Made by a program: the position numbers and the translations under genes. A model generated the notes under the pieces. That model worked only from the letters and a program-made list of their open reading frames with translations. It had not been told where the DNA came from and did no database searches. Positions 1,387 to 12,407 of a stretch of 21,278 nucleotides of DNA are shown here, in pieces (position 1 is the stretch's first letter; the number at the start of each line of letters is the position of its first letter). Source of the DNA: a virus. The stretch is from positions 1 through 21,278 of IMG/VR virus record IMGVR_UViG_3300025013_000116; one strand, written 5' to 3'.

Positions 1387-3435
1387 ATGACCCCATACGA
1401 ATATCACAACGATCAATTAGGAGTACAGGCACGTGTGCTTATAGAAGGCAGAGACGCGGATGATAATAGCTTGAGATTAATTGGCACACGTGGGTTACAA
1501 CACCGGATTGAAAACAACTACATTAAACGGCTGCGTGCTCAGGGGCCAAACACTCCTACCCTCGTAAAATGGGACACTCTACCCCGTGACTGGCAGAAAC
1601 TATTGGTTGAAACTTTTGGGGAGCCACAACGCCAGGTGAGGCAATCGCTTTTTGAAAAACATTACTCACGCGACTCACGCGCTATTGAATTTTACACAAA
1701 TTACCAATTGACCGACGGCAAATTACTGCCGGATGATGTGATTGACGAATATACCCTGAACGCTTCGGTTCTGAACACGGTTGAGCGCATTTATACCAAA
1801 CGCTACGAATTACGCAAAAGCCTTCGCGGTGGTGTGGCTGACGTTTGGACTACAGTTACTAACGAATGCAACCGTTTCCGCGATATACAATCGCATACAC
1901 TACCAGCCAACGCAGCCGCTTTGCGCCGCAAACTGAAAGACTATAAAAAAGAAGGTTACTCCGCGCTGATTCATGGAAATTTCTGTAATAAATCGGCTTT
2001 AAAAGTGGATGAAACCGTGATGAATTTACTCAACAGCATGTTCGCGCATCAATCGTACAAGCCAACTGCTACCGAAATTGCCCGTCAGTATGAGGGTTTT
2101 TTAAGCGGATATGTTGATGTAATTGACAATAAATGGGGCGAAATATTCGATTCAAAGGAATTTCCAAAGCTTTCGCAGGCAACAATCACCAATTACCTGG
2201 CAAAATGGACCAACAAAGCAGGAACACACACCCTACGCAGTGGTGACCGTCAATTATGGATGCAGAAATTTAAGCCTTATCATAGCATGAAGATGCCGGA
2301 ATTTGCCGGAAGTATAATATCAGTTGATGACCGTCAACCTCCTTTTTGGTACGAAAAAGGCAAACGTGTTTGGATGTACGGAGCTGTTGACCTTGGAAGC
2401 GCAGCCATAACCTGCTGGGTGTTCGGAAAAACAAAAGAGAGCCTGATCCTTGAATTTTACCGTCAGATGGTCAGGAATTATACCGAGTGGGGACTAAGCC
2501 TGCCTTATGAACTCGAAGGTGAAATGAGCGGTAACAGTGTTTTCCTGAATACTTTTCTTCAGGAGGGATCGATGTTTCAGAAAACGCACATTGCCGCCAA
2601 TGCTGCCCGCGAGAAAAGGGTTGAACCCTATTGGAAACCGCTCAGGTATAAAAAAGAGAAGAAACGCTATGGATGGATTGCCCGTCCAAACGCATTATCA
2701 GAACCAAATCAGGCGGGTCCAGGTAAGCACGTGATTTTATCTTACGACCGCATTGTTGAAGAGTGCCTGATCGATATTGAAGAATGGAACAACGATGAAC
2801 ACCCGGTAATTAAAGGTAAAACGTGCTGGGAGGTATTACTTGAAATGCAACATCCGAATATAACTCCAACCAACTGGCGGGCTTTCCTTCCGTCGTTGGG
2901 ATTCAAAACACAAACCTCGTGCAATACCGGAATTATTAAGCTGAACAATACGGAATGCCTGTTAGGCGAAAACGGACAGATTGCCTTTAGCGACCGGCTG
3001 ATTAGCCTCATGGCTCAGGTTGAAGGGAAAGACCTGGACATTTACTGGCTCGACGGAAATGACGGTAAAGTATTAAAAGCATTGGTTTACCTGCGTGGAA
3101 CCGACCGCTGTATTTGCGAAGCCGTTTCGAAACCGGTTTATCACCGTGCCAGACTCGAACAAACCGAAACCGATTTGGAAGCCCGCGAACTGATGAGCAA
3201 ATACGTGGCTTCGGTTAACGGATTCATCAACACGAAACGCAAATCGATTGAACCGGTGACTGTGATCGACAACATTCCAACAACGCTAAACAACAAATTC
3301 AAAATATCCGGGTTGCGCCGCACCGTTACCGAGCGTATCGTTCCGGTTGAAGTGCTCGACAACCCGGATTTGAATGATGATGATTTAAACTTCATTTCAA
3401 CACCATTTAATAAAGGTTTATACGACACATTTTAA
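1387..3435 (+). CDS. Mu-type DDE transposase (MuA-like)
   Basis: Catalyses strand cleavage and transfer for integration and replicative transposition. At 682 residues it is close to MuA (663). Residues 1-150 hold an N-terminal DNA-binding region, and about 305-460 the RNase H-like core. Asp314 or Asp315 in SIISVDDRQP is the first catalytic acidic residue. The third is Glu413 in the NAAREKRVEPYW helix. In the second position I see only glutamates (E375, E377, E379 in LPYELEGEMSGN) instead of the usual Asp. The YGWIARPNALSEPNQAGPG segment after the core is typical of Bacteroidota Mu-like transposases. A beta-barrel region and charged C-terminal tail (NDDDLNF) follow, where MuA contacts MuB. Start at 1387, directly behind a tandem repeat. 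Confidence 0.95.
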   Translation: MTPYEYHNDQLGVQARVLIEGRDADDNSLRLIGTRGLQHRIENNYIKRLRAQGPNTPTLVKWDTLPRDWQKLLVETFGEPQRQVRQSLFEKHYSRDSRAIEFYTNYQLTDGKLLPDDVIDEYTLNASVLNTVERIYTKRYELRKSLRGGVADVWTTVTNECNRFRDIQSHTLPANAAALRRKLKDYKKEGYSALIHGNFCNKSALKVDETVMNLLNSMFAHQSYKPTATEIARQYEGFLSGYVDVIDNKWGEIFDSKEFPKLSQATITNYLAKWTNKAGTHTLRSGDRQLWMQKFKPYHSMKMPEFAGSIISVDDRQPPFWYEKGKRVWMYGAVDLGSAAITCWVFGKTKESLILEFYRQMVRNYTEWGLSLPYELEGEMSGNSVFLNTFLQEGSMFQKTHIAANAAREKRVEPYWKPLRYKKEKKRYGWIARPNALSEPNQAGPGKHVILSYDRIVEECLIDIEEWNNDEHPVIKGKTCWEVLLEMQHPNITPTNWRAFLPSLGFKTQTSCNTGIIKLNNTECLLGENGQIAFSDRLISLMAQVEGKDLDIYWLDGNDGKVLKALVYLRGTDRCICEAVSKPVYHRARLEQTETDLEARELMSKYVASVNGFINTKRKSIEPVTVIDNIPTTLNNKFKISGLRRTVTERIVPVEVLDNPDLNDDDLNFISTPFNKGLYDTF

Positions 3436-9987: not shown

Positions 9988-10548
9988 ATGACAGAAGTTT
10001 CAAAAACAACAACAGTAGCAAGGATCAACCAGGTTGATATACTTGTGATCGAAAATGGAGAAAAAAGAGTTGCAGTAAAACCTATTTGCGAAGCAATAGG
10101 GGTTGATTTTTCAAGTCAACTTCAGAAGATAAAAGAGGATGAAATTTTAGGTTCAACCGTGGGGCTGAGCACCACAGTTGGAGCCGACAAAAAAGAACGC
10201 GAAATGGCCTCAATTCCTTTCAAATTTGTATTTGGATGGATATTTGGCATTAGTGCAAAAAACGTAAAAGAGGAAGCCCGCGAAGTGTTGATCAAATATA
10301 AACTTGAGTGCTATGAAGCCCTTTACAAACATTTTACCAGTTATGCCGAGTTTGTTGAGCAAAAGCAAAAACAGATAGATAGACAGCTAGAAATTGAGCG
10401 CGAAGCCCGCCGTAGTTTCTACACGGCAAAAACGGTACTAAAAGAGGCCGAATCGGAACTTTATAAAATCTCGAAACTCACGTTTAGCGATTACAACGAC
10501 CAACGCCGCCAACTGGCCATGTTTTCAGACCACGAAATGAACGGGTAA
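9988..10548 (+). CDS. Antirepressor-type protein (P22_AR_N domain)
   Basis: 186 residues. Residues 15-115 match the N-terminal domain of P22-type antirepressors: VDILVIENGEKRVAVKPICE, AIGVDFSSQLQKIKEDEILG, then IPFKFVFGWIFGISAKNVKE and LIKYKLECYEALYKHF. The C-terminal half is a long charged coiled coil (residues 120-170, QKQKQIDRQLEIEREARRSF). Such proteins bind prophage repressors and trigger induction, or regulate phage genes. It lies in the distal early operon with its own AC-rich leader. The true target, own or foreign repressor, is unknown. Confidence 0.82.
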   Translation: MTEVSKTTTVARINQVDILVIENGEKRVAVKPICEAIGVDFSSQLQKIKEDEILGSTVGLSTTVGADKKEREMASIPFKFVFGWIFGISAKNVKEEAREVLIKYKLECYEALYKHFTSYAEFVEQKQKQIDRQLEIEREARRSFYTAKTVLKEAESELYKISKLTFSDYNDQRRQLAMFSDHEMNG

Positions 10549-10596: not shown

Positions 10597-10842
10597 ATGG
10601 AAAAAATTCTAATCATCGTTGTCGTATCTGTTTTTATCGCTGCTATTCTATTTCTTGTTTTGCGCGAGGTAGTAACCTGGTATTTTAAAATAAATAAACT
10701 GGTGGAGCAAAACGACGAGATTATTCGGTTGCTCGAAGTTATTGCATACGAACAGGATGATGAACCGATAAAAGAACTGGAGCTGGAGGTAATAAAAAAC
10801 AAGAACGATATAACAACCGCTCTTTTTTCCAAACGAACTTAA
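10597..10842 (+). CDS. Small single-pass membrane protein
   Basis: 81 residues: an N-terminal transmembrane helix (KILIIVVVSVFIAAILFLVL), then REVVTWYFKINKLVEQNDEI and an acidic coiled-coil tail (DDEPIKELELEVIKNKND). The WYFKINK..E..dEI..LL arrangement recurs in small Bacteroidota membrane proteins. The orientation is probably a short periplasmic end with a cytoplasmic tail. Function unknown. It precedes the structured leader of the KilA-N gene. Confidence 0.72.
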   Translation: MEKILIIVVVSVFIAAILFLVLREVVTWYFKINKLVEQNDEIIRLLEVIAYEQDDEPIKELELEVIKNKNDITTALFSKRT

Positions 10843-10893
10843 AATTTATGAAGAATTGTTTTGATTCTTAAAAATAATTCTCACATTTGCTCC

Positions 10894-11027
10894 TGACTAT
10901 CAATTATTGCACTTCAGGGGCAAAATTCCTGATTTTATTTTTATTAACAAATAAGGCTCGTCCGCAGTATGGTGGCTGAATGCGAAAGCATCGGCAGATT
11001 TCACGCCCCGCGTGTAATTGATAGTCA
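10894..11027 (+). ncRNA. Structured leader upstream of KilA-N gene
   Basis: A perfect 13-bp closing stem (tgactatcaatta 10894-10906, taattgatagtca 11015-11027) encloses a ggggc/gcccc helix (10917-10921, 11005-11009). Inside is a hairpin capped by a GAAA tetraloop (atgc-gaaa-gcat, 10980-10991), extended by ctg/cag. The 3' arm tgatagtca (11019-11027) is also complementary to tgactatca at 11063-11071, which reaches the A of the antirepressor ATG. Closing stem and start-site pairing are therefore mutually exclusive. An intrinsic terminator hairpin lies between. This suggests a cis or trans antisense control, functionally like the c4 RNA of P1/P7/P22, though not the same sequence. Confidence 0.6.
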
Positions 11028-11032
11028 CACCT

Positions 11033-11053
11033 GAACCGGACGGGTTCTTTTTT
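11033..11053 (+). terminator. Intrinsic terminator within KilA-N leader
   Basis: gaacc (11033-11037), loop ggacg, ggttc (11043-11047), then TTTTTT (11048-11053). It is only 18 nt before the antirepressor ATG, so it would attenuate that gene or define the 3' end of the structured RNA. Confidence 0.7.
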
Positions 11054-11070
11054 AACCATTTTTGACTATC

Positions 11071-11709
11071 ATGGAAAAAAGAAATGAAAAGCAAGCTACG
11101 AACTTGCAGGTGGTGGAGCTAAACCACCAAAAATTTGCCGTTGAACTTCAAAACGGCAACATGAGTATCAACCTCACCCAGATGTCTCAGCCATTTGGAA
11201 GATCAAAACGACCACTTAACTGGTTAATCACACAAGAATCAAAAGATTATCTAAATGCCCTTAGCGTGGCTAAAAAAATAGCCACGGCTGAGCTTGTGAA
11301 AGTTAAGCAAGGAGGACAAAACCAAGGCACATGGGTTACAGATTATCGCATTGCCATGCGTTTTGCACAATGGTTAAGCCCTGAGTTTAGTATTGCTGTT
11401 GATGAAATTTTGGTAAACCTGTTGCGGGGCGATGCTTTACTTGTAAAACCCTTTAACGGGGTAGAGCCAACCATTCACCAGGGCAAATCGTGGTACAATT
11501 ACCTCGATGTGCTGGTTTCGTTGGGCTACAGCCGTAACAGTGGCAGCGTGGCCGTTCGCAAAAGGTTGTTCCCGCAGCATTTCGCCAAGTTGTTTGGCCG
11601 CAACTTTATAACCCCCGTATTTTGCAATTTCCTGAAATCGAAGAAAGATGCCGTACAGTTGGTGTTAGATTTTACTGCAAACCATAAAGTAATAGGAGGG
11701 CTATCCTAA
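11071..11709 (+). CDS. KilA-N domain antirepressor-like protein
   Basis: 212 residues with a KilA-N/Bro-type DNA-binding domain at about residues 20-120: FAVELQNGNMSINLTQMSQP, FGRSKRPLNWLITQESKDYL, then QGTWVTDYRIAMRFAQWLSP and EFSIAVDEILVNLL, the family's core. The C-terminal part (IHQGKSWYNYLDVLVSLGYS, then VRKRLFPQHFAKLFGRNF) is a second small domain of the kind attached to phage antirepressors. An in-frame TTG at 11062 exists, but the ATG at 11071 is preferred. It lies after an intrinsic terminator and a switch-like leader, so expression is probably conditional. Its stop TAA overlaps the next ATG (taatgg). Confidence 0.85.
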   Translation: MEKRNEKQATNLQVVELNHQKFAVELQNGNMSINLTQMSQPFGRSKRPLNWLITQESKDYLNALSVAKKIATAELVKVKQGGQNQGTWVTDYRIAMRFAQWLSPEFSIAVDEILVNLLRGDALLVKPFNGVEPTIHQGKSWYNYLDVLVSLGYSRNSGSVAVRKRLFPQHFAKLFGRNFITPVFCNFLKSKKDAVQLVLDFTANHKVIGGLS

Positions 11710-11906
11710 TGGAAGACTGTATGGAATGCACAGCAGTGCGGGAGCTTTTAGGTGAAGACGAACCCGCCGAATTTATTGAAACCATTGACACGATGTTTGA
11801 AGCATGGATTTGTTCCGAATTTTCAGACGGAACCACCGGCACCCAGCGAGCTTTAGCACTTTCGCATATCAAAGCGTTGAAGCGATTAATTAACTCGATC
11901 AAATAA
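11709..11906 (+). CDS. Small acidic protein, paralogue 1
   Basis: 65 residues, overlapping the KilA-N stop by 1 nt. Core: VRELLGEDEPAEFIETIDTM, then FEAWICSEFSDGTTGTQRAL and ALSHIKALKRLI. It is clearly homologous to the product at 12159-12407 (LL-x-D/E-P-A-x-x-x-E-T, W-x-x-S/CSE-x-SDGTT-x-x-QR, AL-x-H-x-KAL). Helical and acidic; no family with known function recognised. Because it is coupled to the antirepressor it may be its partner or modulator. Last gene of the early operon; a terminator follows 8 bp after the stop. Confidence 0.75.
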   Translation: MEDCMECTAVRELLGEDEPAEFIETIDTMFEAWICSEFSDGTTGTQRALALSHIKALKRLINSIK

Positions 11907-11938: not shown

Positions 11939-11986
11939 ATTGCTTTAAATTTTGATTCTATTGTTTAATTCGGTTATTTAGCCAAC

Positions 11987-12118
11987 GATCGTTACTACAT
12001 ATAAGGCAAAGTGTCCACGCTTCTTAATTGGCAAAATAAAGCCAATGGAGTGCGGTATCCGTAAGGTTCCGCGATTTACTTTGCCTTATGGTATGTAGGT
12101 GACGATCAACTCCATTGG
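11987..12118 (+). ncRNA. Long branched structured element between paralogues
   Basis: Layered stem: gatcgt/acgatc (11987-11992, 12102-12107), ctacata/tatgtag (11995-12001, 12092-12098), and an 11-bp perfect taaggcaaagt/actttgcctta (12002-12012, 12078-12088). Inside are two hairpins, attggc/gccaat (12027-12032, 12041-12046) and gcgg/ccgc (12052-12055, 12069-12072). ccaatggagt (12042-12051) is also perfectly complementary to actccattgg (12109-12118) outside the closing stem, followed by a T-rich tract. That gives an alternative fold or pseudoknot just upstream of the paralogue gene. It shares agtgtccacg with the element at 8295-8304. It could be a regulatory RNA or a MITE/attC-like DNA element. 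Confidence 0.55.
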
Positions 12119-12158
12119 TTCTTTTATTTTAATCAACACTTATTAAAACATTTTAACT

Positions 12159-12407
12159 ATGCCACCCATGAAGAAAACTCCTATAGAGGAGTTATTAGAG
12201 ATTGATTCGCCGGCAGCTATTTATGAAACACTTTCTCAGTTCGCCGATGTCTGGCTAAGCTCAGAGATTAGTGATGGAACAACATGCGAACAGCGATCGG
12301 TAGCGCTCAGACATCACAAAGCACTTCGTCTGTTTTTGTATCGCCTGCAAAAAGAAGAGCGAAAAAAAACAAAAACAAAACGCAACATGCCAGTATGGCT
12401 CAGTTGA
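12159..12407 (+). CDS. Small protein, paralogue 2
   Basis: 82 residues, homologous to 11709-11906: IEELLEIDSPAAIYETLSQF, then DVWLSSEISDGTTCEQRSVA and LRHHKALRLFLY. A basic tail (KEERKKTKTKRN) is added. It lies beyond the early terminator, behind the branched structured element, so it is likely transcribed or controlled separately from its paralogue. Its A-rich leader and ATG are clear; an ATG at 12168 (MKKTP) would lose three residues. Function unknown. Followed by the convergent terminator block. Confidence 0.72.
   Translation: MPPMKKTPIEELLEIDSPAAIYETLSQFADVWLSSEISDGTTCEQRSVALRHHKALRLFLYRLQKEERKKTKTKRNMPVWLS

Follow-up and report, generated by a model that had tools for sequence, protein, structure and literature searches.

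A probable c4-type antisense RNA precedes the KilA-N gene of a Mu-like Bacteroidota phage

The c4 RNA of phages P1 and P7 lies between target copies upstream and downstream of the RNA, and the direct target of P1 c4 is icd, to which ant is coupled; the sar RNA of P22 is transcribed against ant and is not carried in a leader. RNase P cuts c4 RNA at a GG in the base of the closing stem, which leaves about 77 nt, and a' and b' then bind the target (PMC5320573), and the processed C4 RNAs of P1/P7 and Acinetobacter begin with GGW or GGC (PMC5320573). In Weinberg 2010 (PMC2864571), c4 is listed for Proteobacteria and phages only. Here we analyzed a leader (10894-11053, plus strand, as for all features below) in a window of 21,278 nt, which is the whole stretch of viral DNA considered. 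We conclude that this leader is probably a c4-type antisense RNA that would, after processing and in trans, hold back a KilA-N antirepressor, and that, judged from its sequence, a distant kinship with the P1/P7 c4 antisense RNAs is very probable. P1/P7 c4 (RF01695; c4-a1b1) and the proposed RNA are both complementary to the region where translation of an antirepressor operon starts, and they have in common the three-stem scaffold; the proposed RNA would also have a processed 5' end starting with GG, as P1/P7 c4 does (PMC5320573, PMC12197685). The small sar RNA of P22 pairs with the ant mRNA and hinders the start of translation (PMC12197685), and such an action is envisaged here. Whereas the antisense of P1/P7 c4 is bipartite and located in loops, that of the window RNA is one contiguous junction strand.

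The window sits, as record G000, within a Prolixibacteraceae MAG (L057), with a KilA-N protein of 100% identity. Its phage has a Mu-like gene set that includes Mu Gam (Pfam) and an AAA protein, as expected for MuB. The 682-aa ORF ahead of the AAA protein (1387-3435) had no match in Pfam and would be the transposase, based on its position and size. In the region of interest, a P22_AR-type antirepressor gene (9988-10548) is followed by a small ORF (10597-10842) and the KilA-N gene (11071-11709), which encodes a KilA-N domain protein of 212 aa (Pfam PF04383, E 4.7e-16; PHROG 129 transcriptional regulator, E 2.1e-19). This gene is the probable target of the leader RNA, and its product is a putative antirepressor by family assignment only.

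The leader begins with a promoter-like -7 element of the Bacteroidota type (consensus TAnnTTTG), CACATTTG at 10882-10889, with TATATTTG or similar at the conserved position directly before a1 in relatives; its TTTG (10886-10889) marks the start of the feature immediately 5' of a1. The 5' target copy a1, TGACTATCAATTA (10894-10906), forms a perfect 13-nt stem with the contiguous junction antisense strand a', TAATTGATAGTCA (11015-11027), and perfect non-overlapping 13-nt inverted repeats occurred in only 20/100,000 shuffles of the 191-nt leader. Next comes a small hairpin, TCAGGGGCAAAATTCCTGA (10914-10932), and then the 5' arm of a long-range closing helix with a GGC at its start (10955-10964). 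Within this helix lie the inner helix GGUG (10971-10974) with its partner CACC (11028-11031), seen in the alignment of relatives, the P3 hairpin with a GAAA cap (10975-10995; GGAAAC type in relatives and in c4-2), and the P4 hairpin ACGC-CCC-GCGU (11003-11013), the loop of which holds a' in canonical c4-2. The 3' arm of the closing helix, CGGACGGGTT, ends in a U run (11037-11053) and is a probable terminator. The second target copy a2, TGACTATCA (11063-11071, 9 nt), overlaps the ATG at 11071 and is complementary to 11019-11027. The 191-nt region folds with -50.5 kcal/mol (z = -2.75), and in the unprocessed RNA the 13-bp stem and the long-range closing helix form a pseudoknot.

All of the elements described in the initial annotation, namely the perfect 13-bp stem, the GAAA-capped hairpin, the terminator-like hairpin, and the ATG tract, were thus found in place, but its view of the terminator in front of the ATG needed to be revised. 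The local hairpin GAACC-GGACG-GGTTC and T6 are present at 11033-11053, but this 5-bp hairpin is not conserved in relatives (L002, L009), and what is conserved instead is the long-range helix of 10955-10964 with 11037-11046, which encloses the whole RNA and is followed by the U run. As a side aspect, GGGGCAAA in the 5' leader hairpin is also an inverted repeat of the promoter-proximal TTTGCTCC. Within 10886-10932, many window-type relatives keep a promoter-proximal dyad, TTTGC(T/C)CCTGA ... TCAGGGGCAAA, and many also keep another hairpin, TCAGGGG...CCTGA, which excludes the dyad and has T-rich DNA behind it. The dyad or the alternative hairpin might act as an operator or as an early attenuator.

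With the KilA-N protein as query, phage contigs were found in which the regions 5' of the gene share the layout of the window. From 5' to 3', they contain the TTTG promoter element, the 5' arm, in most cases the small TCAGGGG hairpin, the 5' arm of the long-range helix, the GAAA hairpin, a very small ACGC/GCGU hairpin, a stretch complementary to the 5' arm, CACCU, the second arm of the long-range helix together with the U run, and finally, at the start codon, a further copy of the 5' arm. The covariance model R1 was built from seven window-type RNAs, without c4-2 sequences, and 15 family members scored 45-104 bits with it. In the seven-member set, 87.6% of the cells pair, whereas shuffles reach 72.8% and slid controls 35-46%. 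In the 15-member alignment, which includes eight members not used for model building and leans towards the model because it was fitted to it, the respective values are 92.3%, 70.1%, and 32-43%, and 17 of the 25 pairs show two-sided compensatory changes. The closing helix is the clearest case, with 97.3% of its cells paired and changes on both sides in 9 of its 10 pairs (15 members).

Further members were sought with two DNA patterns that covered parts of the motif, and most of the contigs returned were unrelated. Among 96 loci from the first pattern search, R1 detected no member; among 97 loci that came mostly from the second, it detected three, of which L206 belongs to an already known contig and L158 and L231 are new. 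The R1 matches L295 and L301 (E 0.007-0.009) were treated as false, as a1 and a2 copies were absent by eye. In a blastn search against isolated phages, neither the leader nor the second RNA region described below had a match. More distant RNAs 5' of KilA-N genes were seen in L040 and L058, where the complement of the start region comes in two parts (CUGUAAU and UUGAAC in L058); R1 does not find them, and they are apparently a further variant. In L300, a second stem-plus-pseudoknot element (989-1109), followed by a small paralogous ORF, lies 5' of the c4-like RNA of that locus.

The most characteristic aspect of the family is that one variable sequence occurs in three linked copies, as a1 at the RNA 5' end, as its complement a' inside the RNA, and as a2 at the downstream start codon. 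Over 19 members, the longest exact complement between the RNA and its own start region is 9.0 nt on average, compared to 5.5 nt with the start regions of other members, which was reached in 0 of 50,000 permutations; the test treats members as exchangeable, and the similar letters of some of them (L002, L304, and L305) make it conservative in their case. The ten members outside model building gave practically the same result (8.9 nt own, 5.5 nt foreign, 0/50,000 permutations), and the upstream copy a1 follows the same own-versus-foreign pattern as the start-site copy. Examples are L231 with a' GGUGAUAGUCA and start AUGACUAUCACC, L299 with UUGUAAUUCA and AUGAAUUACAA, and L158 with GGAAGUCA and UGACUUCC. 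A target-site duplication by a mobile element as the origin of the direct repeat was ruled out, because the internal complement varies together with the repeat. Covariation and a start-site complement in relatives had been named beforehand as the sequence-level test of the proposal, and both were found, also in members outside model building. The central idea of the initial annotation, a c4-like RNA with an antisense strand over the start of an antirepressor-like gene, is supported by the covarying helices and the co-varying complement.

Its assumption that the sequence is unrelated to c4 is not supported, as searches in both directions show homology between the scaffold and Rfam c4-2. The window RNA had no match in Rfam at the gathering threshold. 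In a permissive search, c4-2 (RF02944, clan CL00128) was the best family for the window leader with 25.1 bits, in comparison to a gathering score of 41, and E-values of 0.017 (1.3 kb, 4227 families) and 0.0025 (201-nt stretch). The c4-2 family was also the best match for L031, L002, and L046, the last of which had the highest c4-2 score among the relatives (38.2 bits, E 9e-5), still below the gathering score. Conversely, R1 detected about two dozen RF02944 loci in register (E 5e-7 to 0.05). That the models detect each other indicates, at the level of sequence, that the window scaffold is homologous to c4-2. In the 5-Mb host MAG, the only two c4-2 matches (E <= 1) were the two RNAs of the window, which are about 1.1 kb apart. 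Of 396 genomes sampled from the phylum, 9 had RF02944 matches above the cut-off, with at most six copies in any one of them, whereas none of 14 control genomes had any. RF01695 (c4) was unlisted in the cmscan of the window RNA, which retains only the best model per clan.

In common with c4-2, the window RNA has the nested scaffold of a 10-bp closing helix, inner helix (AUGG-GG/CC), P3 (GGAAAC type), and P4 (ACGC/GCGU), as well as the ACACCUAA segment, the U run, the a1/a2 target copies on both sides of the RNA, and the occurrence in Bacteroidota. The antisense is where the two differ: in c4-2, it is split into a' in the P4 loop and b' (UAGGA) in the junction, whereas in the window type it is a single unbroken strand, about 12-15 nt long, that lies between P4 and CACC, and the P4 loop has 3 nt (CCC/CUC/CCU and similar), with neither loop-borne antisense nor junction UAGGA, a contrast that was read from aligned sequences, as a scripted length measurement parsed too few. 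As the window RNA was found to stay below the gathering score and to lack the loop-borne antisense, we filed it as c4-like and not as a c4-2 member. As in P1/P7 c4, the antisense of the window type is complementary to an upstream copy and to a downstream start copy, and the target is an antirepressor gene or operon by family assignment only.

Canonical c4-2 loci follow the same principle, as they have a1 and a2 copies to which a' and b' are complementary, and their own a'-a2 match exceeds all 50,000 permutations. In L275, for example, TCCTAAACACAAAG occurs both 5' of the RNA and at the downstream start, with CTTTGTG in the P4 loop and TAGGA in the junction. Where the gene downstream of canonical c4-2 loci was examined, small ORFs of 77-137 aa with no Pfam match were found, in contrast to the antirepressors of the window type. 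Some Bacteroidota genomes have up to six canonical copies (L261-L290, e.g., L275:1602-1832) with differing antisense letters, and in L267/L284 (G318:C4:20366-20566) a tandem pair of c4-2 RNAs is spaced by about 40 nt. The L275 copy precedes a 77-aa ORF (MSTNTLSKETELRLTDFF...) without Pfam or PHROG match, the first residues of which are similar at many other copies, and adjoins an ORF that resembles a Vsr-type endonuclease. The c4-2 loci with small ORFs are possibly a small toxin-like or phage-satellite system.

In the mechanism that we favor for the window, the RNA would start near 10894 with a1, the copy of the start-site sequence, and would fold into the covarying c4-2-like scaffold closed by 10955-10964/11037-11046, which places the 13-nt a' in the junction, where it could pair with a1 and also with a2 at the KilA-N start codon; these steps are in agreement with the sequence. 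By analogy with P1/P7, a cut before the closing helix at GGC 10955, as made by RNase P in c4, would remove a1 and free a', and the mature RNA of about 95 nt would pair in trans with a2 on the kilA-N mRNA and block initiation. The antirepressor would thus be silent in the lysogen and also upon superinfection by a phage of the same type, and the kilA-N mRNA would arise by read-through of the U run. The GGC at the base of the closing stem, with a GG in most relatives, is consistent with the cut motif of RNase P in c4. Fold, covariation, complementarity, and gene association are observed in the DNA; for promoter use, processing, trans action, translational block, and the role in immunity, we argue from the analogy.

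The initial annotation had considered a1 and a2 to be equally complementary to a' and the leader to be switch-like. The equality holds for 9 of the 13 nt but not for the strength, as a1:a' has a duplex energy of -23.6 kcal/mol and a2:a' of -13.0 kcal/mol, and pairing of a1 is stronger than that of a2 in every member computed. A cis-acting leader, in which a1:a' (start free) or a2:a' (start blocked) on one transcript controls kilA-N in response to a signal, perhaps with the closing helix as attenuator, is one possible reading, and we regard it as rather unlikely. It would fit the constant adjacency and fixed order of a1, a', and a2, with the gene directly 3', as well as the mutually exclusive hairpins that window-type 5' leaders can form around TCAGGGG. 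However, with a bias of about 10 kcal/mol towards a1, and with a1 being stronger everywhere, a purely cis-acting switch would stay in one state; moreover, most members have a U run between the RNA and the gene, and the homologous scaffold of P1/P7 acts in trans (PMC8546580, PMC12197685). Since the stronger a1 pairing holds a' in the unprocessed RNA, the best explanation needs processing or strand exchange, and the energy difference fits a processed precursor or trans action better than a balanced cis switch.

That the repeats are DNA operators of a repressor around the promoter and the start codon, with an incidental RNA fold, is very improbable. The dyad TTTGCTCCTGA/TCAGGGGCAAA at the promoter and the direct repetition of an 8-9-nt tract at promoter and start codon would agree with operators, but compensatory changes also occur in helices without any tract sequence, a' follows the tract from phage to phage in RNA-pairing orientation, and the scaffold is homologous to an RNA family. 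A decayed or chance structure without function, for which one could cite the origin of the window RNA from a single MAG or virus record, is refuted in our view by the conservation and covariation across viral contigs and genomes.

Returning to the c4-type antisense RNA as the favored reading, the genes behind it are of several kinds. KilA-N genes are found downstream in the window and L046 (Pfam) and in L002, L003, L009, and L045 (homology to the window protein), a Bro-N antirepressor (Ant) in L158, an AntA antirepressor in L302, and phrog anti-repressor matches in L231 and L299, with L031, L298, L304, and L305 being similar by eye. L300 and L287/L292-type RNAs precede small ORFs, and those after the L300 and L292 RNAs had no match in a family search.

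The second RNA of the window (11985-12127), located before the ORF 12159-12407, has a like architecture, with an interrupted stem of 25-30 bp, a pseudoknotted closing helix (12042-12051/12109-12118), and a U run. It folds with z = -5.0, and c4-2 is its best Rfam match (21.5 bits). In L302, a syntenic homologue has the long stem CAATACTCACC/GGTGAGTATTG and the closing helix GGCCGGTGGAAG/CTTCCATCGGTT, the arms of which differ from those of the window yet stay complementary. A start-site copy was not found for the second RNA, and when its target was searched for in the window and, with a1 as query, in the host MAG, only its own copy turned up. The ORF behind the second RNA and the small ORF after the KilA-N gene (11709-11906) are 42% identical to each other.

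As the letters of a1, a', and a2 differ among related phages on one scaffold, they would set the immunity type. We tentatively entertain, as somewhat less likely than not to hold in full, that these RNAs are a distinct c4 branch of Bacteroidota phages, in which the antisense may have been shifted out of the P4 loop into the junction and a1 may lock a pseudoknotted precursor, with maturation or the exchange of a1 for a2 as the control step; a few letters would then make exchangeable immunity types, and one scaffold would guard several unrelated antirepressor families. The control of antirepressors by c4-type RNA, as worked out in P1/P7, would be extended to temperate Mu-like Bacteroidota phages, and the Rfam family c4-2 would gain a testable function, as its own members show the three-way complementarity, too. 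Groups of superinfection immunity could be predicted directly from sequence.
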